A stretch of 64,000 nt of DNA, taken from assembly GCA_019913005.1 (NCBI GenBank), contig JAIOHL010000177.1, positions 1 to 64,000 of the forward strand, given 5' to 3'. The notes beneath the pieces are model-generated. The model was not told where the DNA came from. It did not search any database and was given only the letters and a program-made list of their open reading frames with translations. Made by a program: the position numbers and the translations under genes. This stretch comes from Anaerolineae bacterium. GTDB lineage: Bacteria; Chloroflexota; Anaerolineae; Aggregatilineales; J027. The first letter of the stretch is position 1. Each line of letters opens with the position of its first letter. This document shows, one piece after another, positions 13,944 through 32,860 of the stretch.

Positions 13944-14348
13944 TTATTCCTCTTGTAGGGCATCCATCACTTTTTCAAGGCGCTGACGAGCCTGATCCGC
14001 AATAGGCTGCATCTGCGAATTTTGCACCACACCCAACATTACCAGTGGGTCAATAATTGCCACTTCGGTGACGCCGGGTTCGACTTCCGACAAGGTGACG
14101 TTGCAGGGGAGCAGCAGCCCAACCTCTGGCTCTAGCTCAAGGGCTTGGTGGGCCAAATTGGGATTGCACGCGCCCAATATCTTATAGGGCCGGAAATCCA
14201 CATTCAACTTTTGTTTGAGGGTGTTTTTGACATCAATTTCCGTCAGCACCCCGAACCCCTGTGATTTTAACGCATCTGTGACTTTTGTCTGCGCTGTCAC
14301 AATATCAGTGTGAAGTTGGGTTTTAAACCCCAATGCTGTTTTATCCAT
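13944..14348 (-). CDS. DUF302 domain protein
   Basis: A 134-residue DUF302 protein. Family landmarks are the early region GFGVLTEIDVKNTLKQKL, then YKILGACNPNLAHQAL, GLLLPCNVTL and the C-terminal ALQEE. Two cysteines (in GACNP and LPCNV) are typical of this family, which often neighbours sulfur-metabolism or metal-resistance genes; its function is unknown. The ATG at 14348 starts within 3 bases of the preceding stop, with AGGAGG 13 bases upstream inside the previous gene, so translation is probably coupled. Confidence 0.85.
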   Translation of the reverse strand: MDKTALGFKTQLHTDIVTAQTKVTDALKSQGFGVLTEIDVKNTLKQKLNVDFRPYKILGACNPNLAHQALELEPEVGLLLPCNVTLSEVEPGVTEVAIIDPLVMLGVVQNSQMQPIADQARQRLEKVMDALQEE

Positions 14349-14350
14349 TT

Positions 14351-15757
14351 TTACTGAACGGCCTCCTTCATGCCGCGCTCCAACGGTAGCCCATTTTGCA
14401 TCCAATACATCGTCCCGCCCAAGACGTTGTAGATCGTCTTAAACCCTTTTTTGCCAAATAGGGCAGTGGCCGATTGACTGCGAGTGCCTGTCGCGCAAAT
14501 TACGGCCACTGGATGTTCGGGATCAAGGGTATCAATCAATTTGGTCAATTGACCAAGTGGCATCAACACTGCGCCGGGGACATGACCCTGAGCATATTCC
14601 CACGATTCGCGTACATCCACCACCACAGGCGGTTCGGCGGAATTGAGTAACTCATTCAGTTCGGTGGGTTCAATGTCCTGCACATCACCGCTGGCAATTG
14701 GCAGACCCATCGCTTCCCACGTCGCAAGGCTGTCGGCGAGATACCCGACGACTTCATCAAACCCGACCCGCGCTAGGCTGTAACGTACATGGGCATAATC
14801 TTCAGGATTTTGCAGCAGCAGAATAACAGGCACTTCGGGCGGCAGGGCAAAACCAATACGATTAGACAATTGGTCATCGGCTTCCAAATGCACCGAGCCG
14901 GGGATATGTTTTGCTACGTAGTCGGCTTTGGGACGGGTATCTAACAACGCCGCGCCTTGCTGGAAATAGGGAATGGCATCTTGAATGGAGAGACCTCGCG
15001 CCTGTAATTCACCCAACACACGCGGCCCCTTGCGATTCATGACCTTAATACGGGTGTGATTGGCAGGCTGCTCTGGCAAATTGCTGGTGGCGTAATCCAC
15101 AAATTCGTTTTTCTCACGTGGGGCAAGGGCCGGATTATGGTGTTTTTCGTAACCCATCGAAGTGCTGCGAACCGAACCGATAGATTTGCCACACAGCGAC
15201 CCCGCCCCATGACCGGGATAAATCACCACGCTATCGCTGAGGGTGAAATATTCGTTGTGCAGCGTGTCGTACATCTGCCCCGCTAGACCGCGTGCCGCCT
15301 CAATACCCACCAAGTCGGGCCGACCAATGTCCCCAACAAATAGGGTATCACCAGTTAGCGCCATCCATGCCTCATCCGCACGGGTGGTATCGGCGACCAG
15401 TACGGTAATGCTTTCGGGGGTATGGCCGGGTGTGTGGCGGATATGCAGACGGATATTGCCTAATTCAATCACATCCCCGCCATGTAAGGCTTGATGCTCA
15501 AATTCGGCATTACCTAATTCGTGGACATAGATGGTCGCCCCGGTACGATCCGCCAGTTCGGTGTTGCCGGATACATGATCGGCATGAAGATGGGTTTCGA
15601 TAATGTGGGTGATCTTGAGATTTTTTGATTGGGCGACATCGAGATATTTCTGCACATCGCGGTCAGGGTCAACCACAGCGGCAACCCCATGCGCTTCGCA
15701 GCCTACCAAATAGGAGGCGCAGCCAATACCTTCGATGAAAAATTGTTGGATATACAT
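14351..15757 (-). CDS. Metallo-beta-lactamase fold / double rhodanese fusion, persulfide dioxygenase-like
   Basis: A 468-residue protein. The N-terminal MBL domain (about 1-240) carries HLHADH and HTPGHTPES metal-binding motifs and TGDTLFVGDIGRPDL, as in ETHE1-type persulfide dioxygenases, which oxidise glutathione persulfide to sulfite. Rhodanese domain 1 (about 265-350) is degenerate, with no active-site Cys. Rhodanese domain 2 (about 370-460) has the catalytic loop CATGTRS. I chose the ATG at 15757, preceded by AAGGAA; the longer frame to 15805 lies inside the neighbouring gene. The fusion couples sulfur transfer with oxidation, and the adjacent TauE-type exporter could remove the sulfite produced. 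Confidence 0.88.
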   Translation of the reverse strand: MYIQQFFIEGIGCASYLVGCEAHGVAAVVDPDRDVQKYLDVAQSKNLKITHIIETHLHADHVSGNTELADRTGATIYVHELGNAEFEHQALHGGDVIELGNIRLHIRHTPGHTPESITVLVADTTRADEAWMALTGDTLFVGDIGRPDLVGIEAARGLAGQMYDTLHNEYFTLSDSVVIYPGHGAGSLCGKSIGSVRSTSMGYEKHHNPALAPREKNEFVDYATSNLPEQPANHTRIKVMNRKGPRVLGELQARGLSIQDAIPYFQQGAALLDTRPKADYVAKHIPGSVHLEADDQLSNRIGFALPPEVPVILLLQNPEDYAHVRYSLARVGFDEVVGYLADSLATWEAMGLPIASGDVQDIEPTELNELLNSAEPPVVVDVRESWEYAQGHVPGAVLMPLGQLTKLIDTLDPEHPVAVICATGTRSQSATALFGKKGFKTIYNVLGGTMYWMQNGLPLERGMKEAVQ

Positions 15758-15767
15758 GTGTGATTCC

Positions 15768-16517
15768 TTACAGTAAACTCGGTAGATTGTCGAATAACAG
15801 CACAAGTGCTAGGCCGATAACAAAAAGGGCAAAGGCTTGGCGCAAATGGTCAGCTTTGATGCGATGCGCGAACTTGGCCCCAACGAATGTTCCTGCTAAA
15901 CCCGACGCCATAAAAGTGAGCATCAAGCCTATATCCAATGAGACATGGCCCAAGTGCCCAACAAATCCGGCAAAACTGTTCATGGCGATAACCACCAGCG
16001 ACGTACCCACCGCCTGCTGAAAAGGCAGTCCGATGAGCATGACAAGGGCCGGTACAATCAGAAAGCCGCCGCCGACTCCCAATATCCCCGTTAACAGCCC
16101 AACTACTGCGCCACTCAGCACGATCACCACCCAATTCATCTCTTTTTTTGCGGATGTATTGGGACGGGGTGCAAAGGTCATCAACAGGCCGATGGTGAGC
16201 ATCAAAAAAGCGAAAATCGTGAGGAGTAGCGACTTGGCGAAATGTTCGGAAAGACCCGCCGAAAGATAGGCCATTCCGATGCCAGAACCGCCAAACAGCA
16301 GCGCCACACGCCAATTCATGGTGCCCTGACCGCGATGGAAATAAGCCCCGATAGCGCTGTTCGTGCCGACGACTGCTAGTGAGGTCGTCACCGCGACTTG
16401 GGGCGATTGACCCACCAGATAGACAAGAGCGGGCACGGTCAAAATCGAGCCGCCACCACCTAACAGACCCAACGTCAGCCCGATGACAAAGCCTAATAGC
16501 AGGCCTGTCAGAATCAT
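15768..16517 (-). CDS. TauE/SafE family anion (sulfite) exporter
   Basis: A 249-residue membrane protein of the TauE/SafE (DUF81) family with about eight transmembrane helices. The two family repeats start with GLTLGLLGGGGSILTVPALVYL and GLLTGILGVGGGFLIVPALVML. Family members export sulfite or other sulfur oxyanions. The ATG at 16517 overlaps the stop of the upstream rhodanese gene (ATGA), indicating coupled translation. The gene context supports sulfite or thiosulfate as substrate. Confidence 0.88.
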   Translation of the reverse strand: MILTGLLLGFVIGLTLGLLGGGGSILTVPALVYLVGQSPQVAVTTSLAVVGTNSAIGAYFHRGQGTMNWRVALLFGGSGIGMAYLSAGLSEHFAKSLLLTIFAFLMLTIGLLMTFAPRPNTSAKKEMNWVVIVLSGAVVGLLTGILGVGGGFLIVPALVMLIGLPFQQAVGTSLVVIAMNSFAGFVGHLGHVSLDIGLMLTFMASGLAGTFVGAKFAHRIKADHLRQAFALFVIGLALVLLFDNLPSLL

Positions 16518-16858
16518 CGAGTACCTTTCTTGACCGATAATCCGGCCCGCTGCCATGCTCCCATGCCGCCGCGTAGATTAATCGCGGTATAACCTGCCGC
16601 TCGCAGTTGGCGAACCGCTACCCCACTCCGTGCCCCTGAACGACATACGCACAGAATAGCTTTATCTTTAGGAAGCTCATTCAGGCGTTGATTCAGCTTA
16701 TCAAGCGGAATCAGTTTGGCAGAGGCGATGTGGCCCACTTGAAATTCTGCTGGTTGACGCACGTCCAACACCAGAAATTCCTTGAGACGCGGCTCCGCTT
16801 CTTGGGCTGAAAGTGATGTGGTTGAATTTTGACCGAACAATTTTTTGAATAACTCCAT
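16514..16858 (-). CDS. Single-domain cytoplasmic rhodanese
   Basis: A 114-residue rhodanese. Landmarks are LVLDVRQPAEFQVGHIASA and the catalytic loop CRSGARS (Cys at about 70). There is no signal peptide or membrane segment, so it is cytoplasmic. It is the first gene of the minus-strand sulfur operon (rhodanese, TauE-type, MBL-rhodanese, DUF302, membrane rhodanese), starting after AGGGGGATACCA. It is divergent from the LysR-type gene, whose product probably regulates it. Confidence 0.88.
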   Translation of the reverse strand: MELFKKLFGQNSTTSLSAQEAEPRLKEFLVLDVRQPAEFQVGHIASAKLIPLDKLNQRLNELPKDKAILCVCRSGARSGVAVRQLRAAGYTAINLRGGMGAWQRAGLSVKKGTR

Positions 16859-16939
16859 TGGTATCCCCCTGTATGTGGTGTAACATCATCATCGCTGATT
16901 TTGATTTGGTCAGGCAGAGTGAATAGGTTATCATCTACC

Positions 16940-16954
16940 ATAAGTAAAACTTAT
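16940..16954. promoter_or_regulatory. Palindrome, candidate LysR-type operator
   Basis: A perfect inverted repeat ATAAGT-AAA-ACTTAT contains the T-N11-A signature of LysR-type sites. It lies 14 bases upstream of the LysR-type start and 82 bases from the divergent rhodanese start, placing it well for autoregulation and divergent control. Confidence 0.6.
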
Positions 16955-16967
16955 AACAGGATGCTGG

Positions 16968-17873
16968 ATGCTGGATTTCCATAGACTCGAAATTTTTCAG
17001 GCGGTGGTTGAGACTGGCAGTTTTAGCCTTGCCGCCGAACGTCTATTTCTCACACAAGCCGCTGTCAGTCAGCACATCAAAGAATTAGAAGCCAGTGTCG
17101 GCACAGAATTGTTTGTACGGGGTCGGCGCGGGGTCACGCTTACGCCATCCGGTCAAATCTTGGCGAATTACACCCGCCGTATTTTGGATTTGGTCACCGA
17201 AGCCGCCGTCGCCGTGACTGATGTCGCCCATCTGAAACGGGGTGAGATTCGGTTGGGTGCGACGCCGGGGATTGGAAGCTATGTTTTGCCAATGTGGATG
17301 CAGTCATTTCGCAAGGCCTACCCCCAATTGACCCTCTCACTCACCACTGATGTCACCCAGCGTATTGTCGAACTCTTGCAGCAGGATCGGCTTGACCTCG
17401 CGTTTATCGAAGGTGAGTTGGAAGAAAGGGACTGGCTTGGTTATGTAGCCCTGCAAGAAGTCCAGCAGTATGTGGTGGTGGGTCGAGGACATGCGTGGTG
17501 TATGTTAGAAACCATTCCACTGGAAGCCCTGTATACACAAAAATTTGTGATGCGCTCCAAAGATAGCCAGACCCGACGCTGGCTCGAAAGTCAGTTGGCG
17601 AAACATGGGGTGGTGCCGGAAATCGCCGCCGAATTTGACAGCCCCGAAGCCCTCAAACAAGCCGTCATAGCGGGCATGGGGATCACGATTTTGCCTGATT
17701 ACACTCTACAACTAGAGCTACAGTCGAAGCTGCTGCGTGCCCTGCCATTGGAGGGGGTCTCACTCAATCGGGTGTTGAAACTCATCTGGAATCGGCAAAA
17801 ACCGTTTGGCCCTATCACCATGGCTTTCCTTAAACATCTTGCCGAGCAGTTTCCAGCCCTCCACAATCTATAA
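16968..17873 (+). CDS. LysR-family transcriptional regulator
   Basis: A 301-residue LysR-type regulator. The N-terminal winged HTH (about 3-62) contains FQAVVETGSFSLAAERLFLTQAAVSQHIKELE, and the C-terminal effector-binding domain spans about 90-295. The closest general resemblance is to the CysL/YeiE group, which controls sulfur and sulfite genes. The gene is divergent from the rhodanese/TauE operon and convergent with the YeeE operon, so sulfur metabolism is the likely target. The ATG at 16968 follows AGGATG. Confidence 0.88.
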   Translation: MLDFHRLEIFQAVVETGSFSLAAERLFLTQAAVSQHIKELEASVGTELFVRGRRGVTLTPSGQILANYTRRILDLVTEAAVAVTDVAHLKRGEIRLGATPGIGSYVLPMWMQSFRKAYPQLTLSLTTDVTQRIVELLQQDRLDLAFIEGELEERDWLGYVALQEVQQYVVVGRGHAWCMLETIPLEALYTQKFVMRSKDSQTRRWLESQLAKHGVVPEIAAEFDSPEALKQAVIAGMGITILPDYTLQLELQSKLLRALPLEGVSLNRVLKLIWNRQKPFGPITMAFLKHLAEQFPALHNL

Positions 17874-17939: not shown

Positions 17940-19169
17940 TTATCCACAGCCGCCGCTCTTGCCGCCGCGTGCTGCTTGCAATTTGACTTTGGAAGTGTAT
18001 TCCAATTGGAACACATCCGGATTGGGGTTCGCCATTGCATAACGGCTGCCCAATGCCGAAGCAAAGGTATAAGCCAGCGTGTCATGGGCATGACTTTCAA
18101 TGAGGCTAGTGGTCTTAAACTCTTCATCGGCAAAGGTAGTAATCCAGTTGTTGATACCGCCTTCCAACACGTAGACGTTGGGAACACTCTCCGACACCAT
18201 TGTCTTCCAAACTTCAGTCGCGGCCTTCTCATCGTTGCCAATCACCATAAAGACCGTGTTGGCAGATTTGGCGCGGAATTCTTTCAGGTGGTCTGGAATC
18301 TCATCAGCGGAGATATTCACCGCGTCCAACAGATGGAACAAGTTAAAATCGGCCTCATCACGCACATCTAGTAAAATCAAATTGATACGGTCATCACGCA
18401 TCAAAGCCAACACTTCACCCGCTTGGATTTGCACATCACGCTTTGCCAACACGGGGGCTTTGTCGTCCTTAATTGTGTTCCAGCGATCTTCGGTATTCGG
18501 CTGACCAATGAACATGACAACCACTGCGCCCGCCAACAGTGTTCCGGCAGCCCCATACCGCCACTTAGGTGCTTTTTTGAGGTCAGCCCCGCCAAAAATA
18601 CGTTCCATTTGTTCGGCAAAGGCGAAGGCCACAAGCGCAAACAGCACCAAAATCACAACCGTCGCACCCGTGCTGATATTCAAAAATTCGGGGATGATAT
18701 AGCGGCCTTCATAGGAGGAATACCAGAAATCCTCAAATGAACCCACTGTTTCACCAAAAAGGAATATCCCGAAGAATGCGCCGATGGCAAAAAATAATCC
18801 ATCCAATCGGCCTGTTGCGGCAGAGACTAACGACGTGCCGGGGCAAAAACCGCCGATGATGAACCCCACCCCCATAATCAACCCGCCGACGATACCGGGC
18901 CAAAGATAGGTGGGGTTGACCCAGACCAGATTAAAGTCGAGCAAGCCGACTGCCGATGCCGCAAATACCAATACCATTGCGACGACGATACCCGTGAACA
19001 TGACCTTCAGAACGGTCATATCGCCTAGATAAAACTGGGCGGCAAGGCGGCGCGAATCGCCAAAGCCAGCGATTTCCAAAACGACGCCAAAGGCAATCCC
19101 AATCGCCAGTGAAACTAAATAGGATTCCCAGTGGCCTAACAAATCTTCAAAATTGAGTGGAAATGGCAT
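17940..19169 (-). CDS. YeeE/YedE transporter with C-terminal rhodanese-like domain
   Basis: A 409-residue fusion. The N-terminal half has about six transmembrane helices of the YeeE/YedE family (thiosulfate/sulfur-compound uptake, TsuA-like), with the conserved-cysteine motif GGFCPGTS near residue 107. The C-terminal part (about 240-350) is a rhodanese fold starting at LILLDVRDEADFNLFH, but the active-site loop reads MVIGNDEKA with no cysteine, so it is probably not a catalytic sulfurtransferase. The protein ends in a Gly-Cys-Gly tail (SGGCG), which might provide a thiol. AGGAGG precedes the start. It pairs with the second YeeE gene 12 bases upstream. Confidence 0.88.
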   Translation of the reverse strand: MPFPLNFEDLLGHWESYLVSLAIGIAFGVVLEIAGFGDSRRLAAQFYLGDMTVLKVMFTGIVVAMVLVFAASAVGLLDFNLVWVNPTYLWPGIVGGLIMGVGFIIGGFCPGTSLVSAATGRLDGLFFAIGAFFGIFLFGETVGSFEDFWYSSYEGRYIIPEFLNISTGATVVILVLFALVAFAFAEQMERIFGGADLKKAPKWRYGAAGTLLAGAVVVMFIGQPNTEDRWNTIKDDKAPVLAKRDVQIQAGEVLALMRDDRINLILLDVRDEADFNLFHLLDAVNISADEIPDHLKEFRAKSANTVFMVIGNDEKAATEVWKTMVSESVPNVYVLEGGINNWITTFADEEFKTTSLIESHAHDTLAYTFASALGSRYAMANPNPDVFQLEYTSKVKLQAARGGKSGGCG

Positions 19170-19181
19170 GGTATTCCTCCT

Positions 19182-19760
19182 TTAGTGCCACAAACGACGG
19201 ACAAAATAGGCAAGGGCATAGCCGCCAGCAAACACGGCGAACATAAAAGCCCAACTCCCCACCGACAACACTGCCCCGCCAGACAAGGCTTGGCCGGAAG
19301 TGCAGCCGCGTGCCATACGTGCGCCATAACCCATAAATGCCCCGCCGATAAACGCCAGCATCCAGCGCATTTTGACCGATACATGCGGCCCTCGATTGGT
19401 TTCGATCTTAAAACGACCATTCAGCCAACCAGAGGTGAACCCGCCGACAATGACCCCAAGCATCACAAACACGACCCAACTATCCATCGGGTTCGTGTCG
19501 CCGCCTGCCATCTCCAACAGATAGGCGGTGCGATCTACGTGATCGGGCACTAATTGATCTTGCCCCCACACCAGAATCCGGTTCATGCCGCCGGACGCAC
19601 CCAACCCATTGCCTGTCAGGAAAAATGACGAGAACAAAACCACGCCAAGCAAAATGCCTGCCAGATAGGGGTTAACATAGGCGCGGGCCTGTCGTTTGAC
19701 CCCAATTGCGGTACGGGCCGGCACCCGCACCCATTTTTTGATTGAACCTTGAACTACCAT
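19182..19760 (-). CDS. YeeE/YedE family membrane protein (second half-size subunit)
   Basis: A 192-residue protein with about four transmembrane segments and the family motif ARGCTSGQALSGG (Cys at about 155), the counterpart of GGFCPGTS in the neighbour. Half-size YeeE proteins encoded in pairs, as here, are common in sulfur-handling bacteria and probably form one pathway for thiosulfate or sulfane sulfur. GGAGA precedes the start. It follows the multiheme cytochrome gene by 17 bases in the same operon. Confidence 0.88.
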   Translation of the reverse strand: MVVQGSIKKWVRVPARTAIGVKRQARAYVNPYLAGILLGVVLFSSFFLTGNGLGASGGMNRILVWGQDQLVPDHVDRTAYLLEMAGGDTNPMDSWVVFVMLGVIVGGFTSGWLNGRFKIETNRGPHVSVKMRWMLAFIGGAFMGYGARMARGCTSGQALSGGAVLSVGSWAFMFAVFAGGYALAYFVRRLWH

Positions 19761-19777: not shown

Positions 19778-22528
19778 TTAATCCGCCGCCGAAGTTTGGG
19801 CTTCAGGCGTATTGGTCTGTGTTTGATCGTGTGTTTCAACCTCATCCCAACCCATCATCATGCCTTTGATGCCTGCTAATGGGTGATGTCCTGTGGTGGT
19901 CAGATAGACGTGCATCACGATAAAGGTCGCAAACATCCACGCCACCAGTGTATGAATAGGCGCGAGGAATGGCAGACCACCCAAGTCATCCGCAAGTTCG
20001 GGGAAACGTTGTATCCCCCACATCATCGCACCCGTCAAGATTTGCAGTGGCAGCAGCACATTGAGCAGCCCCAAGTAGGTCAATTGTTGCAACGGATTCA
20101 TCTTTTGTTCGGGCGTTTTTTCCATTGGGTGGGGTTCGCCCTTAAAGATGCCGCTTAGATAGAACTTGGCCTGTGCAAAGGCTTGGTCAAAGAAACCGTA
20201 GGGGCGTGGCAAAAATTGGCGAATCTGCCCGCTGGCAAAATGATAGAAGGCCGCCAACGCTGCATTGATGAGCAGAATAATCGCCATGAGGTTGTGAATT
20301 TGGACGACATAGCGGAAACTGAACATGCCAAACTGGTCGGGTTTGTGAATCACCAGACCCGTGAAAATCAGCGTAAAAATGACCGCCGTTTGAAGCCAAT
20401 GCCACTGCCGTTCATAGAGCGAGTACATATAGACCTTATGGAGTTCGGCACTGTGCTTGTGTTGACCCGCCATCTTGCGTGCTGCCCGATAGCGCAGGCC
20501 GCTGTGTGTGAGCACACCCGCGAATACTCCCAAGAACATCGCCAGCCCTAGCCAATCCACCCAACCTGCCCTGTTATGCCCGAAGATATACAAATCGGTC
20601 ACGTCGGTATTGGTCTGAGGTTGATAAAACAGCTTGCCATCTTCTTCCACAAAGTCGCCGCTAAACTTTGCACCGTCGCTTTCATGGAAGGTGGGGGTCG
20701 TGCTGCCGGGGGTGTAATCCGATAAAATCATGGCGGTGTTTACCCGCGAATCATCGGTATGGCAGCTATCGCAGTCCTTTGTGACCCAATCGCCTCCCGC
20801 TACTCCATGATTAATGCTATAAGGTTGGACATCGCCTTCAATACGGGGATTTTCCAGACCCCGCGTCGCTAGCCGTTCCGTAATCAGGGCTTCTTTGGCA
20901 TCACTGTCTATCATTAATTCGGCGTCGGTCACTGTGCCATCACTGTTGGCATCAAACACCGCCAGTACGTCAGCGGCATAATTTTCGCCATCCAGCCAAG
21001 CGGCCTGTAAATCAACCAGTGGGACAGGTTGTGCTGGGTCGCCATAGACCCATAACCATGTCGTCACCAGATTATAGGGAGAGAGGATGGTCGAGCCGTC
21101 AGGGTTGGCATGGGGCAACAGGACTGGTTCAAAGCCATTGATGATTTGATTACCGGAACTGCTGGTATCCATCCCACGACAGGTCAACACGGGTGAACTA
21201 TCGGGTTGAATTACCGTCCAGTCCACTGTTTGCAAAGCCGGGGCATACATCTTGGGGACATGGCAGGTCTCACAGGCCAGCACATCCATATGCCGTTCTT
21301 CATAGGGCAGCCATTCGTGACTGACTTCGGTATCATGGCAGGCTTCGCATGGCTGAATCACATTTTGATAGGCAATTCCGGCGGCATCCGTTTCCGGCTG
21401 TCCATTGGCAAAATCGTGCAAGGGGCGGCGCAGATATTCGGAAATGTCGAGGCGGCGGGGGTCAAATACCAGATGTTCGGGGCTGTCCGAAGCGGCCTCT
21501 TTATAATAGACCGGATTGTTCATAGCATAGTGGCAGTCGGTACATTCGACCACACGCTCGGCATGAATATCCCAAGAACGATTGAGGTCACTCTTATTCG
21601 ACAAATTGAGGCCAGATTTAGAAATCAACTGCGATGAGAATACCTGTCCTGTTCGCAGGGTGGTATTGTTTTGCGAGGCGTCACAGGTGAGGCCTGTCAG
21701 TGGCACTTGATTTTCACCGTGTACCGTCCCATGACACTGACCGCAGTTATCGCTGCGTGGGTCTTGCACCGTGACATATTCGGCCAGCAACTTGCCATCG
21801 ACGTCAAAAGCGTCGGCATTCCAAACCCATTCGCCATCCTGTTCGCTTACAATACCTGTTCCATTCAGGGTGGCGGTGTTGGCCCAACCAAATTCGCCCG
21901 ACTGCAAAGCCACTGTCCGTGCTGTGTTGTCGGGGGTGGCGGTGTGGCAGAGGAAACAGTTCATTTCTTCCATGCCCGACTGTGCCCAATCCCATACCAC
22001 TAATTCCCCAGTGGTTGGGTCAACTGTCGCGTTTTCGGGGGTCAATTCATCGGCGGGGAGGTCAGTCAGTAACCCGCCTGCTCGGCTGTACATGGCTGGC
22101 CCGCCGCCGACATGTCGCACCCCATAGAGCTTGATCCAATCGGGGGTCGTCAGGTCAATCGAAGTATCGCCTGTTGCGGTAAGGGTGCGATACAAAAGCG
22201 GATCCCATTCACCAAAATAGGCCGAGGTGAGTTCCCAATCACGCCTATTACTAGGGGTTTCACCTGCAATCAATTGATCGAGGCCGACTTGGGTATGTCC
22301 GCTGTGCTGCTCGATATATTCGGTGTCGTGACATTGCCCACAGGTTTTGAGGGTCGAGACAGGCTTGCTGGATTCCAAAACATGGTTGCCGTCTGCATCC
22401 AACAGCGCATAGGTCGGGTGCATCGGGATCGGTTCTTGGGCCGCCGCCCCCTGCATCGCCACCAAAACCAAACCTGCCCCGATGAGGATGAGGGCGAAAA
22501 TGAATAGCCGTTTGAAGATTGATTTCAT
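19778..22528 (-). CDS. Seven-heme cytochrome c fused to membrane cytochrome b-like domain
   Basis: A 916-residue protein with a signal peptide (residues 1-32, ending GAAAQ). The exported part (about 35-640) contains seven CxxCH heme c sites (CGQCH twice, CFLCH, CTDCH, CEACH, CETCH, CDSCH) and an EF-hand-like stretch (DANSDGTVTDAEL). The C-terminal 270 residues carry about five transmembrane helices with spaced histidines (LTHSG, QWHWLQ, QIHNL, FYHFA, MHVYL), as in diheme cytochrome b561/formate dehydrogenase gamma-type quinone modules. It likely moves electrons between the quinone pool and the octaheme partner encoded upstream. I chose the ATG at 22528, 10 bases after GAGAGG. Confidence 0.82.
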   Translation of the reverse strand: MKSIFKRLFIFALILIGAGLVLVAMQGAAAQEPIPMHPTYALLDADGNHVLESSKPVSTLKTCGQCHDTEYIEQHSGHTQVGLDQLIAGETPSNRRDWELTSAYFGEWDPLLYRTLTATGDTSIDLTTPDWIKLYGVRHVGGGPAMYSRAGGLLTDLPADELTPENATVDPTTGELVVWDWAQSGMEEMNCFLCHTATPDNTARTVALQSGEFGWANTATLNGTGIVSEQDGEWVWNADAFDVDGKLLAEYVTVQDPRSDNCGQCHGTVHGENQVPLTGLTCDASQNNTTLRTGQVFSSQLISKSGLNLSNKSDLNRSWDIHAERVVECTDCHYAMNNPVYYKEAASDSPEHLVFDPRRLDISEYLRRPLHDFANGQPETDAAGIAYQNVIQPCEACHDTEVSHEWLPYEERHMDVLACETCHVPKMYAPALQTVDWTVIQPDSSPVLTCRGMDTSSSGNQIINGFEPVLLPHANPDGSTILSPYNLVTTWLWVYGDPAQPVPLVDLQAAWLDGENYAADVLAVFDANSDGTVTDAELMIDSDAKEALITERLATRGLENPRIEGDVQPYSINHGVAGGDWVTKDCDSCHTDDSRVNTAMILSDYTPGSTTPTFHESDGAKFSGDFVEEDGKLFYQPQTNTDVTDLYIFGHNRAGWVDWLGLAMFLGVFAGVLTHSGLRYRAARKMAGQHKHSAELHKVYMYSLYERQWHWLQTAVIFTLIFTGLVIHKPDQFGMFSFRYVVQIHNLMAIILLINAALAAFYHFASGQIRQFLPRPYGFFDQAFAQAKFYLSGIFKGEPHPMEKTPEQKMNPLQQLTYLGLLNVLLPLQILTGAMMWGIQRFPELADDLGGLPFLAPIHTLVAWMFATFIVMHVYLTTTGHHPLAGIKGMMMGWDEVETHDQTQTNTPEAQTSAAD

Positions 22529-24022: not shown

Positions 24023-24391
24023 TTATACGGTGATAGTTTCTCCGGTGATCGCCTCGCTTGAATCCTCGTTTGCCAGTAGATTGGATTTATGATCTAACGA
24101 ATCCCGCAAAATCTGGCGCATGGCGTCCAATATTTCAATGATCTTGGGGGTAGATAGACTATAAACAACGGACTGACCTTCGCGTTTGGCTACCACGATT
24201 GACCGATCTCGTAAAACGGTGAGATGCCGAGAAATGGTTGGTTGTGGGGTTGCCAATGCCTCTGTTAATGCCGAGACATTACGTGGTTGCTCGTATAGAG
24301 CATAGAGGATTTGAATGCGTTTGGGATCTCCAACGGCTGTGCAAATATGACTATGGAGGAGGTCTAGCTCATCTAAGGAAGGAATCGCCAC
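24023..24391 (-). CDS. ArsR-family transcriptional regulator
   Basis: A 122-residue winged-HTH repressor of the ArsR/SmtB type, with the recognition helix in ATPQPTISRHLTVLRD (about 47-62) and a beta-wing (VAKREGQSVVYSL). It has only one cysteine (HIC, near residue 17), so it lacks both the metal-binding Cys pair and the two-Cys persulfide switch of SqrR/BigR. The signal is therefore unclear. The start is GTG, with AAGGA 8 bases upstream. It is the first gene of the multiheme/YeeE operon and probably controls that operon and itself through the palindrome just upstream. Confidence 0.88.
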   Translation of the reverse strand: MAIPSLDELDLLHSHICTAVGDPKRIQILYALYEQPRNVSALTEALATPQPTISRHLTVLRDRSIVVAKREGQSVVYSLSTPKIIEILDAMRQILRDSLDHKSNLLANEDSSEAITGETITV

Positions 24392-24763: not shown

Positions 24764-26455
<1,692 letters not shown>

Positions 26456-26477
26456 GAACGAAGGAGCATCAAATCAC

Positions 26478-28589
26478 ATGGCAATCCAAACAAACCTCAA
26501 AGCACGACCTCTATTTGAAAGGGCCATTGTCCGACGGGCGCTCGTAGATGCAGTACACAAACTTAGCCCACGCCAACAGCTAAAAAATCCGGTGATGCTG
26601 GTCGTTGCGGTAGGGGCGGTTATGACAAGCGGCCTGCTTATCCGTGATTTAGTGAAGGGCAGCACCGAGGAATTTGGCTTCAATCTGCAAATTACCCTGT
26701 GGCTTTGGTTCACGGTACTCTTTGCCAATTTCGCCGAAGCAATGGCCGAGGGGCGCGGTAAAGCCCAAGCCGACAGTCTCCGCAAAACCCGCACGCAGAT
26801 GATGGCGCGGCGCTTGCTATCCAATGGCAAAGAGGAACATGTGTCCGCCTCGCAACTTAAAAAAGGTGATTGTGTGGTATGTGAAGCGGGCGACCAGATT
26901 CCGGGAGATGGGGAAGTCATTGAAGGCATCGCCAGCGTGGACGAATCTGCTATTACGGGGGAATCCGCACCTGTAATTCGTGAAAGCGGCGGGGATCGCA
27001 GTGCGGTGACGGGTGGCACGCGGGTGTTAAGTGACCGCATTGTGATTCGCATTACCTCCGAACAAGGCAGCACCTTTTTAGACCGCATGATTGCCCTAGT
27101 AGAAGGCGCGAAACGGCAAAAGACGCCCAACGAAATCGCCCTAACCATTTTGCTATCAGGATTGACGATCATTTTCCTGCTGGCAGTCGTCTCGCTGCGG
27201 GCCTTTGCCGATTACAGTGAAGGTGAATCAGGTATTGCAGAAACCGCAGCTACTGTGCCCGTGTTGATCGCCCTGTTGGTGTGTCTTATCCCAACAACCA
27301 TCGGGGGACTGCTCAGTGCGATTGGCATCAGTGGGATGGATCGAATGATTCAGCGCAATGTGCTGGCGACGAGTGGACGGGCCGTTGAAGCCGCCGGGGA
27401 TATTGATGTGCTACTGCTCGACAAAACAGGCACGATCACTTTAGGCAATCGCATGGCAACCAGCTTTATTCCAGCCACGAATATCCAAGCCCAGCATTTG
27501 GCTGATGCCGCCCAATTATCCTCGCTGGCCGATGAAACACCGGAAGGGCGTAGCATTGTGGTCTTGGCAAAAGAAAAATTTGGACTACGGGGCCGAGAAT
27601 TGCACGATCTCAAAGCCGAGTTTATCCCCTTCACGGCCCAAACCCGCATGAGCGGCGTGGATTTTGCGGCGGTGGATGGACAATCGGCCCGCAGTATTCG
27701 CAAAGGGGCGGCGGACGCGGTACGTAAGCACGTTGAAGCTCTAGGCGGTATCTACCCCCAAGATGTTCAAACCGCAGTGGATACCATCGCCAAAACGGGT
27801 GGGACACCGCTTGTCGTCACCGAAAACAAAGACATTCTAGGGGTCATTGAACTCAAGGATATTGTCAAAGGTGGCATCAAAGAGCGATTTGCCCAACTCC
27901 GCGCGATGGGCATTCGGACAGTCATGATTACGGGCGATAATTCCCTTACAGCCGCTGCCATTGCTGCCGAAGCGGGCGTGGACGACTTTATGGCACAGGC
28001 CACGCCGGAAGACAAATTGAAACGGATTCGCTCCGAACAAGCCTCTGGTCACTTGGTAGCGATGACTGGGGACGGCACGAATGACGCACCAGCACTGGCT
28101 CAAGCCGATGTTGGGGTGGCGATGAACACTGGAACGCAGGCCGCGCGTGAGGCGGGTAACATGGTGGATTTGGACAGCGACCCCACCAAACTGATTGAGG
28201 TCGTCGAAATCGGCAAACAACTGCTGATGACACGTGGCGCACTGACCACATTTAGTATTGCTAACGACGTCGCTAAGTATTTCGCCATTATTCCAGCGCT
28301 GTTTGGAACACTCTATGCGGCACAGGGTGGCGGCAATGGCCCGCTTGCTGACCTCAACATTATGGGACTGGCCTCCCCACAGAGTGCCATCTTGAGTGCA
28401 ATTATCTTCAACGCCCTCATTATCGTAGCCCTGATTCCATTGGCCCTGCGCGGGGTCAGTTATAAACCGATGGGTGCGGCGGCCATTTTGCAGCGTAATC
28501 TTTTGATCTATGGGGTCGGGGGTTTGATCGCGCCATTTATCGGCATCAAACTCATTGACCTCCTCATCGCGGCATTAGGATTGGCTTAA
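26478..28589 (+). CDS. kdpB: Potassium-transporting ATPase subunit B (P-type ATPase)
   Basis: The 703-residue catalytic subunit. Visible are the phosphorylation motif DKTGTITLG (Asp at about 315), the actuator TGESAPV motif, [12 protein letters not shown] in the membrane ion pathway, and the hinge motif [16 protein letters not shown]. About seven transmembrane helices. ATP hydrolysis here drives K+ transfer through KdpA. GAAGGAG precedes the start. Confidence 0.97.
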
Positions 28590-28603
28590 AAGGGAGGTGG
28601 AGC

Positions 28604-28891
28604 ATGTGGCGAGAGCAACTTTTGCCGTATGTTGGCTTATTGCTGGTTGGGGTGTTGGCAACGCTGGTATTGTTCATTCAAGTGTGGCTGCCCTTGTCTG
28701 ATGACCTCCACTTCCTCTTGGAGCTACTCTGGATTGGGGTGGCATTGGGGGGAGTCTTGATCTGGAGTGTATCCCATGCTGACATGCCCCTCCATGCACC
28801 ACCCGATTTCGAAGATTTGCCGCCAGAACTCTATGATGGAGATCGCTATTGGCTGCAAGAGCATTATGATGACCATTGGTACGAAGAATAG
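28604..28891 (+). CDS. Small acidic-tailed membrane protein inside the kdp operon
   Basis: A 95-residue protein with two transmembrane helices (about 7-27 and 37-58) and a cytoplasmic or exported tail of about 35 residues very rich in Asp, Glu, Tyr and Trp (FEDLPPELYDGDRYW, then HYDDHWYEE). It has a strong ribosome-binding site (GGGAGG) and sits between kdpB and kdpC, where the standard operon has nothing. The position suggests an accessory or regulatory subunit of the Kdp complex. No family was recognised. Confidence 0.75.
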   Translation: MWREQLLPYVGLLLVGVLATLVLFIQVWLPLSDDLHFLLELLWIGVALGGVLIWSVSHADMPLHAPPDFEDLPPELYDGDRYWLQEHYDDHWYEE

Positions 28892-28903
28892 GACAAGCCC
28901 AAG

Positions 28904-29473
28904 ATGTTAAAACAACTATATCCAGCACTGGCTATTTTGGCCCTGCTGACGCTGATTACGGGAGTGATTTATCCCCTGACCGTCACCGCCCTAGCCCAAG
29001 TCGTTTTCCCTGAAAAGGCCGATGGGAGTCTGGTAGAGGTTGATGGCACAGCCATCGGCTCATCACTCATTGGGCAGAATATGAATAACGACCCACGCTA
29101 TTTTTGGTCACGCCCATCGGCTGTCGGCTATAACCCACTGCCGTCTGGTGGTAGCAATTTAAGCTCAACCAGTGCCACTTTGGAGGAAGCAGTCGCCCAA
29201 CGTGCCGCTGATTTCCGCACCGCCAATCAATTAGGCGAGGGTACCGATATTCCAGCCGAAATGGTGTTTGCGTCCGGTAGCGGCCTAGACCCCCATATCA
29301 GCCCCGAAGCGGCCCGCCTCCAAATTGACCGTGTGGCGAATGCCCGTAACCTGCCCCGCGAACAGGTGGCGGATTTGGTGGAGGGCTTTGTAGAATCGCC
29401 ACAGTTAGGCTTTCTGGGACAACCGCGTGTCAATGTGCTGCTGCTCAATCTTGCGCTAGATGAATTACAATAA
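28904..29473 (+). CDS. kdpC: Potassium-transporting ATPase subunit C
   Basis: A 189-residue KdpC with one N-terminal transmembrane helix (about 7-29) and an exported domain containing the family segments SLIGQNMNNDPRYFWSRPSA, GSNLSSTS and SGSGLDPHISPEAARLQ, then R-V-A-N-A-R. It supports assembly and K+ affinity of the KdpABC complex. The ribosome-binding site is weak, so translation may be coupled to the small ORF 12 bases upstream. Confidence 0.95.
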   Translation: MLKQLYPALAILALLTLITGVIYPLTVTALAQVVFPEKADGSLVEVDGTAIGSSLIGQNMNNDPRYFWSRPSAVGYNPLPSGGSNLSSTSATLEEAVAQRAADFRTANQLGEGTDIPAEMVFASGSGLDPHISPEAARLQIDRVANARNLPREQVADLVEGFVESPQLGFLGQPRVNVLLLNLALDELQ

Positions 29474-29502
29474 TGGGAATTCACCCATCAAAGGGTAGAT
29501 AT

Positions 29503-32181
29503 ATGGACGAATTCAGACCCGACCCGGACGCGCTGTTGGCAGTCATCCAAAAAGATGAGGCCCGTCAGCAGCGGGGCAAACTCAAAATTTTCTTTGGCAT
29601 GGCGGCAGGTGTCGGCAAAACCTACGCCATGTTGGAATCTGCCCAACAACTGCACCTCAAAGGGGTAGATGTCGTCGTTGGGTATGTCGAGACCCACAAA
29701 CGGGCTGAAACCGAGTTATTGTTGGAAGGGTTGGAAATTGTCCCTCGCCAGCGGGTCGAATATCGCGGCACGTGGATGGAAGAAATGGATACAGATGCGA
29801 TTTTGGCCCGCCGCCCTGAAATCGTGTTGGTGGATGAACTTGCCCATACCAATGCTCCCGGTGTGCGCCACCGCAAGCGTTATCAGGATGTCCAAGAAAT
29901 TTTAGAAGCGGGCATCCACGTCTATACAACAGTCAACGTGCAGCATTTCGCCAGCCGTGCCGATGCCGTTGCTCAAATCACAGGCATCACGGTACATGAA
30001 ACTGTACCCGACTCCGTTTTGGATATGGCGGATGAAATTGAACTGATTGACCTCTCGCCCGAAGAACTCCGCCAACGCCTCCAAGAAGGCAAAGTGTATA
30101 CTGCCGAGCGGGTGGAGACCGCTGCCAATAACTTTTTCCGCATTGGCAACCTCACTGCCTTGCGGGAAATGGCGCTGCGCTTGACCGCCGAACGGGTGGA
30201 TCACCAACTTCAGGATTATATGAATCTCAAACAGATCGCCGGCCCGTGGAAGTCTGGTGAACGTTTGATGGTTGCCATTAGCCCAAGTCCATTTTCCGAG
30301 CAGTTAATTCGCTGGACGCGGCGCATGGCCTATAACTTGGAGGCCCCGTGGTTGGCGGCCTATGTTGAAACACCGCATGAACCGACCCCAGAAGAAAAAC
30401 AGCGTCTTACCAACCATCTGTCGCTGGTACGGAGTTTGGGAGGCGAGGTGGTGGTCGTTTCGGGGGCGGACATCAACGAAGGGCTGCTGCGTTTAGCCCG
30501 CCAGCGCAATGTCACCCAGATCATCGTTGGCAAACCACTGCGTCATCCACTGCAATCCATTTTACGAGGTGGATCGTTGGTGGATCGGTTGATTCGAGCG
30601 AGTGGGGATATTGACATTTATGTCGTCACGGGGGACAAGCCGGAAGGCGGTCACTCCATCCATTTTCCCACTCCAACCTCGCATTCCGTATGGCTCCAAT
30701 ACCTAATCGCAATGGTGATCGTTTCGGCCATTACGGTTTTAGACCTAATCGCCCTGCCCTATATTGGCTATCAAGCCATCGGCCTGCTCGAATTACTAAC
30801 TGTGCTGCTCATCGCCATTTATGTTGGGCGTGGGCCTGCACTTTTGGCAGCGGTCTTAAGTGCCCTCTCGTGGAATTATCTATTTATCAACCCACGCTTT
30901 ACGCTTGAAATTTACAAAGTCGAGGATTCCATTCTGTTTGCCCTATATTTTGCGATTGCCATCTTTACAGGTAACCTGACGGCCCGATTACGCACCCAAG
31001 AGCGCCAAGCCCGCAACAATGCGGATCGCACCGTCGCCCTATATGCCCTTGCCCGCGAAATTGCCGGGGCGGTGAATATGGATGATGTGCTGCAAACCGG
31101 GGTGACACAGCTTGGACAGGTGTTTGATGCCCAAGTAGCGATACTCTTGGCTGAACAAAAAAAGTTAGCCCCCCAGCCCTATCCATCCAGCACCCTCACG
31201 CTCGATGACAAAGAATACAGTGTTGGCTTGTGGGCTTTCGAAAATGGCAAACCCGCTGGGCGATTTACCGATACCCTGCCACTAGCGACGGTTCAATTCA
31301 TTCCACTCAACACCCCCACGCGCACCGTCGGGGTGATTGGTATCCGCACGCGCCAGCAGGAACGGCTCTCCTTTGACCAAGAAGCGCTTTTGGAGACCTT
31401 TATTAATCAGATTGCCCTTGTGATCGAGCGCGAATTGTTAGATGAGGCGGCAGAACAATCGGCGATGTTAAAAGAATCCGAGCGGTTATATACCACCCTG
31501 TTGAATTCCATCTCTCATGAACTGCGTACCCCGATTGCGACTATCAAAGGGGCATCGAGCAGCCTCTTGGCAACCGACGCGAATGGAGAAGCCCGTTTGG
31601 AATTGACCAAAGATATTCAAAGTGCCGCTGATCGCCTGAATCGCTTGGTCGAAAACCTACTGGATATGTCGCGTTTGGAGAGTGGTCGCCTGCAACTCAA
31701 GCAGGAATGGTGTGATATAAGTGACCTGATTGGGGTCGCCGTCAAAAGTATTGATTATTGCAACAGTAGTCACCCGATTCAACTTCATGTACAGCCCGAC
31801 CTGCCCCTTGTGGAAGCCGATTTTGTGTTGATGGAGCAGGTCATTGTCAATCTTTTGGACAATGCGTGCAGCTACACCCCGCCCGGCACACCCATCACCA
31901 TTGAGGCCAAAACCAATAATCAATACTTGGAGGTGACAGTCAGCGATGCGGGCAAAGGGATTCCACCCGACTCGATTGAGCGTATCTTTGAGAAGTTCTA
32001 CCGTTTACCCGGCACGCCAACCGGGGGGACAGGTTTGGGTTTGTCCATTAGTCGCGGGCTGACCGAGGCGCATGGTGGAACGTTGACTGCCGAAAATTTG
32101 CGGGAAGGAGGGGCAAGATTTACACTGCGGTTGCCATTAAACAGTTCACCACCGCCAGTACAGGAGGCCCAGCATGGCTGA
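29503..32181 (+). CDS. kdpD: Sensor histidine kinase KdpD
   Basis: An 892-residue sensor kinase. The N-terminal KdpD domain (about 20-230) has Walker A GMAAGVGKTYAML and VDELAHTNAPG. A universal-stress-protein-like domain (about 245-370) follows, then four transmembrane helices (about 395-500), a GAF-like region (about 520-650), and the HisKA and HATPase domains, with phospho-acceptor His at about 672 (SISHELRTP) and NLLDNA and G-box motifs. It senses potassium limitation and phosphorylates KdpE. I chose the ATG at 29503 after AAAGGGTAG. It overlaps kdpE by 8 bases. Confidence 0.95.
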   Translation: MDEFRPDPDALLAVIQKDEARQQRGKLKIFFGMAAGVGKTYAMLESAQQLHLKGVDVVVGYVETHKRAETELLLEGLEIVPRQRVEYRGTWMEEMDTDAILARRPEIVLVDELAHTNAPGVRHRKRYQDVQEILEAGIHVYTTVNVQHFASRADAVAQITGITVHETVPDSVLDMADEIELIDLSPEELRQRLQEGKVYTAERVETAANNFFRIGNLTALREMALRLTAERVDHQLQDYMNLKQIAGPWKSGERLMVAISPSPFSEQLIRWTRRMAYNLEAPWLAAYVETPHEPTPEEKQRLTNHLSLVRSLGGEVVVVSGADINEGLLRLARQRNVTQIIVGKPLRHPLQSILRGGSLVDRLIRASGDIDIYVVTGDKPEGGHSIHFPTPTSHSVWLQYLIAMVIVSAITVLDLIALPYIGYQAIGLLELLTVLLIAIYVGRGPALLAAVLSALSWNYLFINPRFTLEIYKVEDSILFALYFAIAIFTGNLTARLRTQERQARNNADRTVALYALAREIAGAVNMDDVLQTGVTQLGQVFDAQVAILLAEQKKLAPQPYPSSTLTLDDKEYSVGLWAFENGKPAGRFTDTLPLATVQFIPLNTPTRTVGVIGIRTRQQERLSFDQEALLETFINQIALVIERELLDEAAEQSAMLKESERLYTTLLNSISHELRTPIATIKGASSSLLATDANGEARLELTKDIQSAADRLNRLVENLLDMSRLESGRLQLKQEWCDISDLIGVAVKSIDYCNSSHPIQLHVQPDLPLVEADFVLMEQVIVNLLDNACSYTPPGTPITIEAKTNNQYLEVTVSDAGKGIPPDSIERIFEKFYRLPGTPTGGTGLGLSISRGLTEAHGGTLTAENLREGGARFTLRLPLNSSPPPVQEAQHG

Positions 32182-32860
32182 GGGGGCGCAGATTTTGATA
32201 GTGGATGATGAGCCGCAGATTCGACGGTTTCTGCGCATCAGCCTAGAGGCCAACGGCTATCGTATTCATGAGGCGGCTACTGGACATGATGCCATTCTCA
32301 AAAGTGCCCAACTACGCCCCGATTTGATCATTCTAGATATGGGCCTCCCCGATTTGGACGGGTTAGAGGTGCTTAGGCATCTACGTGAGTGGACAAAAAC
32401 CCCCGTCATTATCCTCTCGGTACGGGACAGCGATCAAGACAAAGTGGATGCGCTGGATGCGGGTGCAGATGATTATTTGACCAAGCCCTTTAGTACGGAT
32501 GAACTGATGGCCCGTATCCGCACTGCCCAACGTCATGCCCAACCCCAACAGGACGAAATAATTTTCACCAGTGGTCGCCTTAAGGTGGATTTATCACGGC
32601 GTGTGGTCACGGTAGATGGTGAACCTATCAAGTTAACCCGCACCGAATATGCCTTGTTGCGGTTGTTGATTCAACATGCGGGGCGAGTGTTGACCCATCA
32701 GCAAATTTTGCGTGAAGTTTGGGGGCCAGAATATGTCCATGAGACCCATTATTTGCGGGTATACTTTGCCCAACTTCGCCAAAAAATTGAAGAAAATCCC
32801 GCCTTACCTGAGATTATTATCACTGAACCGGGGGTTGGCTATCGGTTGGTGCGACTCTAA
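32174..32860 (+). CDS. kdpE: Response regulator KdpE
   Basis: A 228-residue OmpR-class response regulator. The receiver domain (about 5-118) has the acidic pair in VDDEPQIRR, the phospho-acceptor Asp at about 55 (IILDMGLPDLDG), and the Lys in TKPFSTDEL. The C-terminal winged helix (about 130-225) contains LTRTEYALLRLL and GVGYRLV. AGGAGG precedes the start inside the end of kdpD, so the pair is translationally coupled. It should activate the kdp promoter upstream of kdpF. Confidence 0.95.
   Translation: MAEGAQILIVDDEPQIRRFLRISLEANGYRIHEAATGHDAILKSAQLRPDLIILDMGLPDLDGLEVLRHLREWTKTPVIILSVRDSDQDKVDALDAGADDYLTKPFSTDELMARIRTAQRHAQPQQDEIIFTSGRLKVDLSRRVVTVDGEPIKLTRTEYALLRLLIQHAGRVLTHQQILREVWGPEYVHETHYLRVYFAQLRQKIEENPALPEIIITEPGVGYRLVRL

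Follow-up and report, generated by a model that had tools for sequence, protein, structure and literature searches.

The window analyzed here, a 64,000-nucleotide stretch of an Anaerolineae bacterium of the Chloroflexota (contig JAIOHL010000177.1 of assembly GCA_019913005.1), encodes an exported seven-heme cytochrome c domain, an EF-hand-type loop, and a quinone-type diheme cytochrome b in one chain, directly beside an octaheme tetrathionate-reductase-family cytochrome (OTR). A sequence-only reading of this DNA had proposed this composition, and it is borne out by the open reading frame (ORF), its motifs, and the Pfam and TIGR scores. That reading did not include that the heptaheme domain is itself OTR-like, that the pair lies within a conserved sulfur cassette, or that the two halves are split in Planctomycetota. 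We favor, with moderate confidence, the view that the fusion is a membrane-bound, non-catalytic electron relay from the quinone pool to the OTR, likeliest in the reduction of tetrathionate or other polythionates with uptake of the product.

The fusion is a recurrent single gene

The single-chain form with exactly seven CXXCH motifs was found in the window and at 44 further loci, and two additional loci (L026 and L027) are truncated at contig ends. An assembly error joining two genes had been named in advance as what would overturn the fusion, and the same one-chain form at 44 further loci excludes it. The halves are indeed separate genes at five Planctomycetota loci, as an assembly or annotation artefact might lead one to expect, but the frame is unbroken in 43 of the 44 loci beside the window, which already refutes such an artefact and leaves it a negligible probability. 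The exception, L043, has a frameshift near the end that removes the last part of the protein.

Protein searches gave matches in 18 of 61 genomes, comprising the source genome and its relatives (E ≤ 1e-10, matches to cytochrome b only being counted too), and, across the order, in 33 of 154 genomes (E ≤ 1e-60). Of 301 genomes sampled from the phylum, 13 have a TIGR04315 protein (E ≤ 1e-50), 12 of them above the cut-off; in all 12 (the window and 11 others) the fusion adjoins the OTR, and the thirteenth (L053, with ten CXXCH motifs) has no adjoining fusion. The phyla sampled were Chloroflexota and Planctomycetota only, and absence elsewhere is not claimed. The search in other phyla that the sequence-only reading had proposed was run on Planctomycetota, where it recovered the same cassette but with the heptaheme protein and cytochrome b as separate genes at the five loci mentioned above. 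One 3.2 kb contig labelled Planctomycetota (L027) groups with Chloroflexota OTRs in the OTR tree; it is probably mis-binned and was left out as evidence for Planctomycetota.

The heptaheme domain as an OTR relative

Alignment of the heptaheme and OTR families by hhalign places heptaheme hemes 3–7 onto OTR hemes 4–8 (probability 99.3, E 5.9e-21), and a second pair of alignments gave an E of 2.8e-18. Because a VIA search with the whole model returned mostly membrane folds, the heptaheme part was folded separately (predicted local distance difference test score, pLDDT, 76.8; predicted template modeling score, pTM, 0.76). With this model, 1SP3 (OTR) was the sole Foldseek match with E ≤ 0.001 (4.5e-6, the next being 2.2) and the only one of 118 chains aligned by VIA with Z ≥ 2 (Z 8.0, root-mean-square deviation (rmsd) 4.6, 325 of 436 aligned). 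A VIA Z of 8 is middling on its scale, but it stands isolated and covers residues 34–655. At the superfamily level, the domain as modeled has the OTR fold. A weak common stretch was also seen with PDB entry 28pb.

All 36 scanned members match both the MmcA profile TIGR04314 (best E 1e-19) and the OTR profile TIGR04315 (best E 3e-12), in every case with E ≤ 0.1. The window's fusion stays far below both cut-offs (TIGR04315, 30.9 vs 375 bits, with seven hemes instead of eight; TIGR04314, 29.8 vs 250 bits), and no CX3CH motif occurs in the fusion ORFs, CX4CH not being counted. Colinear matching of the hemes by the surroundings of their motifs leaves OTR heme 2 unpaired in the best pairing at three of three motif-window sizes (best vs runner-up, 13.6 vs 10.7, 9.1 vs 7.1, and −19.8 vs −20.9), a score that 20 of 5040 permuted heme orders attained at the middle size. 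The invariant His37 and His78 flank fusion heme 1 as OTR His51 and His85 flank OTR heme 1, and further conserved histidines align between fusion and OTR (H322/H219, H413/H272, and H574/H435). Across 44 heptaheme sequences, eight histidines outside the CXXCH motifs show conservation of at least 95%, which is enough for seven bis-His hemes. In OTR, heme 2 is the catalytic one and has a Lys ligand; both this heme and its Lys are missing from MmcA (PMC11024163). Most likely, the heptaheme domain lost the same catalytic heme, as in archaeal MmcA.

Between hemes 6 and 7, DANSDGTVTDAEL occupies residues 526–538 of the fusion. The EF-loop pattern is present at this place in 43 of 44 homologous sequences, the window counted and L101 being the miss, compared with 37 of 8800 shuffled segments, and it is found in four of the five split Planctomycetota rows. 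EF-hand_5 was matched in 9 of 36 homologues, and the window protein lies below the Pfam EF-hand cut-off (12.2 vs 25.9 bits). We read the loop as a putative structural calcium site.

The membrane module is a PhsC/FdnI-type cytochrome b

The membrane part matches Pfam Ni_hydr_CYTB (PF01292) with 78.7 bits (cut-off 30.1) and is modeled as five helices (residues 655–686, 704–728, 738–766, 812–841, and 851–878). FdnI is the best match of the four-helix core (1kqf_C; Z 13.5, 184 aligned, rmsd 3.2), and hydrogenase-1 cytochrome b (4gd3) reaches Z 9.4. The candidate b-heme ligands of this core, His710, His745, His859, and His873, are invariant across the fused, split, OTR-linked, and PhsC rows, and the 14-residue spacing of the last two suits diheme ligation as in FdnI. 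The fusion does not reach the cut-off of the PhsC profile (NF011582; 126.8 vs 204).

The first helix carries an H-x-x-hydrophobic-R motif. All 42 heptaheme sequences of sufficient length have it (two of 44 were too short and were omitted), as do the first transmembrane helix of the two PhsC rows and the C-terminal helix of eight OTRs that precede a stand-alone cytochrome b. This common His-helix motif suggests that the helix anchoring OTR elsewhere anchors the heptaheme domain here.

A conserved sulfur cassette

The neighboring OTR is a member of TIGR04315, scoring above the cut-off and possessing eight CXXCH motifs and a conserved Lys after heme 3; its K160 is kept in 93% of 30 OTRs. Around the pair, the conserved gene order is (ArsR-)OTR-fusion-YeeE-YedE/rhodanese. 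In the window all five genes lie on the same strand, separated by 47 (ArsR-OTR), 16 (OTR-fusion), 17 (fusion-YeeE), and 12 bases (YeeE-YedE), and given these short gaps we read them as one operon.

Not counting the window, 43 of 43 fused loci with enough contig have a same-strand OTR directly upstream of the fusion (L117, which begins at a contig edge, is outside this count), and YeeE and YedE are downstream in 43 of 43 (L116 stops at a contig edge). The ArsR gene precedes the OTR at 21 loci and follows YedE at two; of the 21 loci where it was not seen, 17 are short stretches ending before its position. Coordinates are collected in the table; the N-terminal signal listed there was called from the sequence and a modeled helix, not by a signal-peptide program.

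Table. Parts of the fusion gene and the genes of its cassette, in positions of the window.
Feature	Positions	Strand	Basis
Heptaheme cytochrome c-cytochrome b fusion, 916 residues	19778..22528	minus	ORF from ATG; stop within coordinates
Signal peptide-like N terminus, residues 1-31	22436..22528	minus	hydrophobic segment by eye; model helix 2-25
Heptaheme domain, about residues 36-600, OTR fold as modeled	20729..22423	minus	hhalign, Foldseek, VIA
Heme 1 CGQCH, residues 63-67, = OTR heme 1	22328..22342	minus	motif and heme matching
Heme 2 CFLCH, residues 191-195, best paired with OTR heme 3	21944..21958	minus	heme matching
Heme 3 CGQCH, residues 262-266, = OTR heme 4	21731..21745	minus	hhalign and heme matching
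Heme 4 CTDCH, residues 329-333, = OTR heme 5	21530..21544	minus	hhalign and heme matching
Heme 5 CEACH, residues 394-398, = OTR heme 6	21335..21349	minus	hhalign and heme matching
Heme 6 CETCH, residues 419-423, = OTR heme 7	21260..21274	minus	hhalign and heme matching
Heme 7 CDSCH, residues 586-590, = OTR heme 8	20759..20773	minus	hhalign and heme matching
EF-hand-type calcium loop (putative) DANSDGTVTDAE, residues 526-537	20918..20953	minus	pattern count and alignment
First membrane helix, residues 655-686, H-x-x-hydrophobic-R (His675)	20471..20566	minus	model and motif
Four-helix diheme cytochrome b core, residues 695-900	19829..20446	minus	Pfam, alignment, FdnI structure match
OTR, octaheme tetrathionate-reductase-family cytochrome, 476 residues	22545..23975	minus	TIGR04315 578 bits (cut-off 375); 1SP3 E 6.5e-149
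YeeE/PmpA-like half transporter, C-terminal half of PF04143, conserved Cys153	19182..19760	minus	Pfam and alignment
YedE/PmpB-like half transporter (N-terminal half of PF04143) with degenerate rhodanese and C-terminal GGCG tail	17940..19169	minus	Pfam and alignment
ArsR-family regulator, one conserved Cys17, first cassette gene	24023..24391	minus	Pfam/TIGR and alignment

The YedE-rhodanese protein has two features of its own. Its rhodanese active-site loop is without a Cys in 29 aligned sequences, and its C-terminal end is GGCG (GGCGG in L101), the Cys of which is present in 29 of 29 sequences; this end is possibly a sulfur-carrier tail. In the ArsR protein, Cys17 is the single conserved Cys in 24 of 24 sequences, unlike known sulfane-sulfur sensing repressors, which carry two.

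Behind the cassette, at positions 13944–17873, the window's genus (the window and L054–L056) has genes for a DUF302 protein, an MBL-fold/rhodanese protein (persulfide-dioxygenase-like), TauE, and, on the opposite strand, LysR, a set not seen at other cassette loci of the Chloroflexota sample. Downstream on the plus strand, the frames at 24764–32860 look like what we take to be a kdp potassium-transport operon. The source genome carries cytochrome c maturation genes. At another locus, a 774-residue ORF with 15 CXXCH motifs and an OTR-like part lies opposite the cassette (L028:1667-3988, minus strand).

The split form in Planctomycetota

In Planctomycetota, the phylum of genome G360 (whose own locus is L027), OTR was found in 15 of 294 genomes (E ≤ 1e-50). 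Five of 16 Planctomycetota stretches (L100, L101, L102, L111, and L112) encode, as separate genes and in this order, OTR, a heptaheme protein with one C-terminal helix, cytochrome b, YeeE, and YedE, and the border between the split genes falls at about residue 690 of the fusion. L113 and L099 end within the heptaheme gene at a contig end, L103 ends just behind the OTR, and L106 has OTR and cytochrome b without a heptaheme gene; the remaining seven stretches have neither heptaheme nor cytochrome b. In the OTR tree, the cassette OTRs, fused and split, group together (99/96), as opposed to OTRs with their own C-terminal helix (98/96), a group that also contains L098. The cytochrome b tree unites, with moderate support, the fused and split rows (92/79) and the fused rows (84/86).

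The position of the His helix differs between these arrangements. Where a stand-alone cytochrome b comes after the OTR and no heptaheme gene is present, the helix is at the OTR's own C terminus in eight of eight loci, whereas fused-cassette OTRs continue for 28–46 residues past the start of the last heme motif without a hydrophobic helix. Because the OTR bears the His helix where the heptaheme protein is missing, the heptaheme domain seems to hold the OTR's membrane seat here. Two Planctomycetota ORFs of 1079 and 1114 residues (L104:1183-4419 and L110:5545-8886), which combine 13 CXXCH motifs and an OTR part with some ten hydrophobic segments, are another kind of OTR-membrane fusion.

Proposed role and alternatives

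From the observed fusion, its conservation, the OTR and cytochrome b folds, the cassette, and the split counterpart, we infer a path that would begin with quinone chemistry at the PhsC/FdnI-type diheme cytochrome b. Through the two b hemes electrons would reach the periplasmic heptaheme domain, from which exactly OTR heme 2 has most likely been lost; contact between the fusion and the true OTR would then let them move on to the latter's eight hemes. Overall, quinol would most likely drive the reduction of tetrathionate or a comparable polythionate, and the adjacent PmpA/PmpB-like transporter, with ArsR as its regulator, would import the resulting thiosulfate or sulfane sulfur. OTR is known to reduce tetrathionate, nitrite, and hydroxylamine (PMC4484225; PMC11024163).

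Several points weigh against this reading. In the models, pLDDT is below 50 across hemes 4–6, and neither heme packing nor the interface with the OTR is settled by them. Leaving out OTR heme 2 beats leaving out heme 1 by only 1–3 score units. Recent duplication of the neighboring OTR was considered as the source of the heptaheme domain and rejected, as a very long branch (100/100) splits heptaheme from OTR rows in a tree made from the shared region only, its bootstrap not settled. With an FdnI-like quinone site near the inner b heme, quinol-driven tetrathionate reduction would oppose the proton motive force, an argument for the reverse direction, and quinol oxidation at such an inner-side site would leave little driving force for tetrathionate reduction against the proton gradient. 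Thiosulfate reductase (Phs) is a precedent for gradient-driven reduction; with the energetics against and this precedent in favor, we place the reductive reading only moderately above an oxidative one. The persulfide-dioxygenase-like and TauE genes near the cassette in the window's genus would suit oxidation too, and the role of OTR in cells has been termed cryptic (PMC11024163).

In the oxidative case, the OTR or another periplasmic step would oxidize a sulfur compound and the heptaheme-cytochrome b protein would reduce quinone in an energy-conserving, FdnI-like loop. This would agree with the cytochrome b core aligning best with FdnI of formate dehydrogenase N, with the persulfide-dioxygenase-like and TauE genes downstream, and with the resemblance of the importer and ArsR to the SoxT/SoxR pair of a sulfur oxidizer (PMC11582611). 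Those downstream genes, however, are limited to four genomes of the window's genus, and OTR as characterized is a reductase (PMC4484225); we regard electron flow in this direction as a distinct minority possibility. It is quite unlikely that the OTR serves nitrite or hydroxylamine reduction with the fusion as its quinol dehydrogenase in place of CymA or NrfH. Shewanella OTR does reduce both compounds and interacts with STC, which CymA supplies with electrons (PMC4484225), but the source genome has its own NrfA (486.7 bits), so that nitrite reduction has no need of the cassette OTR, and none of the five conserved genes is a nitrogen gene, the conserved partners being proteins of sulfur transport. 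Still more improbable is that the fusion serves extracellular electron transfer as a quinol oxidase like CbcL, the OTR being a periplasmic relay; the domain order is that of CbcL (PMC9129911, PMC6295460) and the weak stretch shared with 28pb can be counted in its favor, but the heptaheme fold is that of OTR, a porin or surface cytochrome is absent from the five conserved genes, and the available part of a 2018 survey has no CbcL homologue in Chloroflexi (PMC6295460).

Relay of electrons from the quinone pool to the OTR remains the reading we prefer. A wider and more tentative proposal, to which we give somewhat less than an even chance, is that a catalytically silenced OTR relative, a bacterial counterpart of archaeal MmcA, sits on a PhsC-type cytochrome b and makes up, together with the true OTR, a dedicated heme wire (15 c and 2 b). 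On this proposal, the wire would belong to a previously unrecognized module of Chloroflexota and Planctomycetota in which polythionate redox chemistry outside the cytoplasm is coupled to the import of sulfur through a split transporter with a GGCG sulfur-carrier tail. If this is true, OTR, the cellular role of which is disputed, gains a physical source of electrons, together with a sulfur context, in uncultured members of both phyla. It would also suggest that an enzyme fold was turned into a heme wire through loss of its catalytic heme, in bacteria and methanogens alike. Because the proposed relay and its membrane module are in one protein, the path from quinone to OTR would be easy to test.

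Comparison with known systems

The sequence-only reading had regarded the architecture as exceptional. Its one-chain make-up stands, but it is not an exception in kind: CbcL/MtrH/MtoC proteins, found in 15 phyla with 3–23 CXXCH motifs, also join an N-terminal multiheme cytochrome c to a C-terminal diheme cytochrome b in one chain (PMC6295460, PMC9129911). The survey of this group lists 138 homologues with six helices, except for five helices in four of them and four in one (PMC6295460), and CbcL itself is a six-helix protein with nine c hemes (PMC9129911). By published description, the fusion differs from these proteins in heme count, and in its model has five helices where CbcL types mostly have six.

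PhsC resembles the fusion in having a five-helix module, an H-x-x-hydrophobic-R motif in the first helix, and the four His, but its partner is a molybdoenzyme, unlike that of the fusion. OTR (TIGR04315; 1SP3) has the fold and the order of at least hemes 4–8 in common with the heptaheme domain; the fusion differs in its seven hemes, EF-loop insert, and cytochrome b, with heme 2 most likely gone. MmcA of Methanosarcina (TIGR04314) is a heptaheme OTR relative without heme 2 and the Lys, and has been described as conducting electrons and interacting with methanophenazine, a quinone analogue (PMC11024163). Unlike MmcA, with its two non-canonical CX3CH/CX4CH motifs and rnf operon, the fusion is bacterial, has seven canonical CXXCH motifs and an attached cytochrome b, and belongs to a sulfur cassette.

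A dedicated cytochrome b in an OTR operon, as here, is known from Thermosulfurimonas dismutans (TDIS_1882/1883, PMC4911364), and we found such pairs on Photobacterium and Paracoccus plasmids as well; they are without a heptaheme protein, and in the loci examined the anchoring helix is on the OTR itself. The cassette transporters, like the split YeeE/YedE proteins PmpA and PmpB, are C- and N-terminal halves of PF04143 with one conserved Cys each in the transporter part (PMC11582611), but they are longer than PmpA/PmpB (about 130 residues), and the N-terminal half adds the degenerate rhodanese and GGCG tail. Elsewhere, OTR has been located near a hydrogenase in Caldithrix (PMC5317091) and reported from 73 sediment genomes of 14 phyla (PMC9040765), and YeeE has been tied to sulfur oxidation or disproportionation, the octaheme protein going unmentioned in the available parts of those papers (PMC13047784, PMC12545173). 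The fusion is not described in the available parts of PMC13188914, PMC11237559, PMC11879220, and PMC10734462, and a literature search of open-licence papers, as far as their text was available, found no description of the cassette. One-chain multiheme-c/diheme-b proteins and pairs of OTR with a separate cytochrome b are thus already known, while the placement of an MmcA-like relative of OTR on a cytochrome b, with a true OTR as neighbor and within a sulfur-uptake cassette, looks new.

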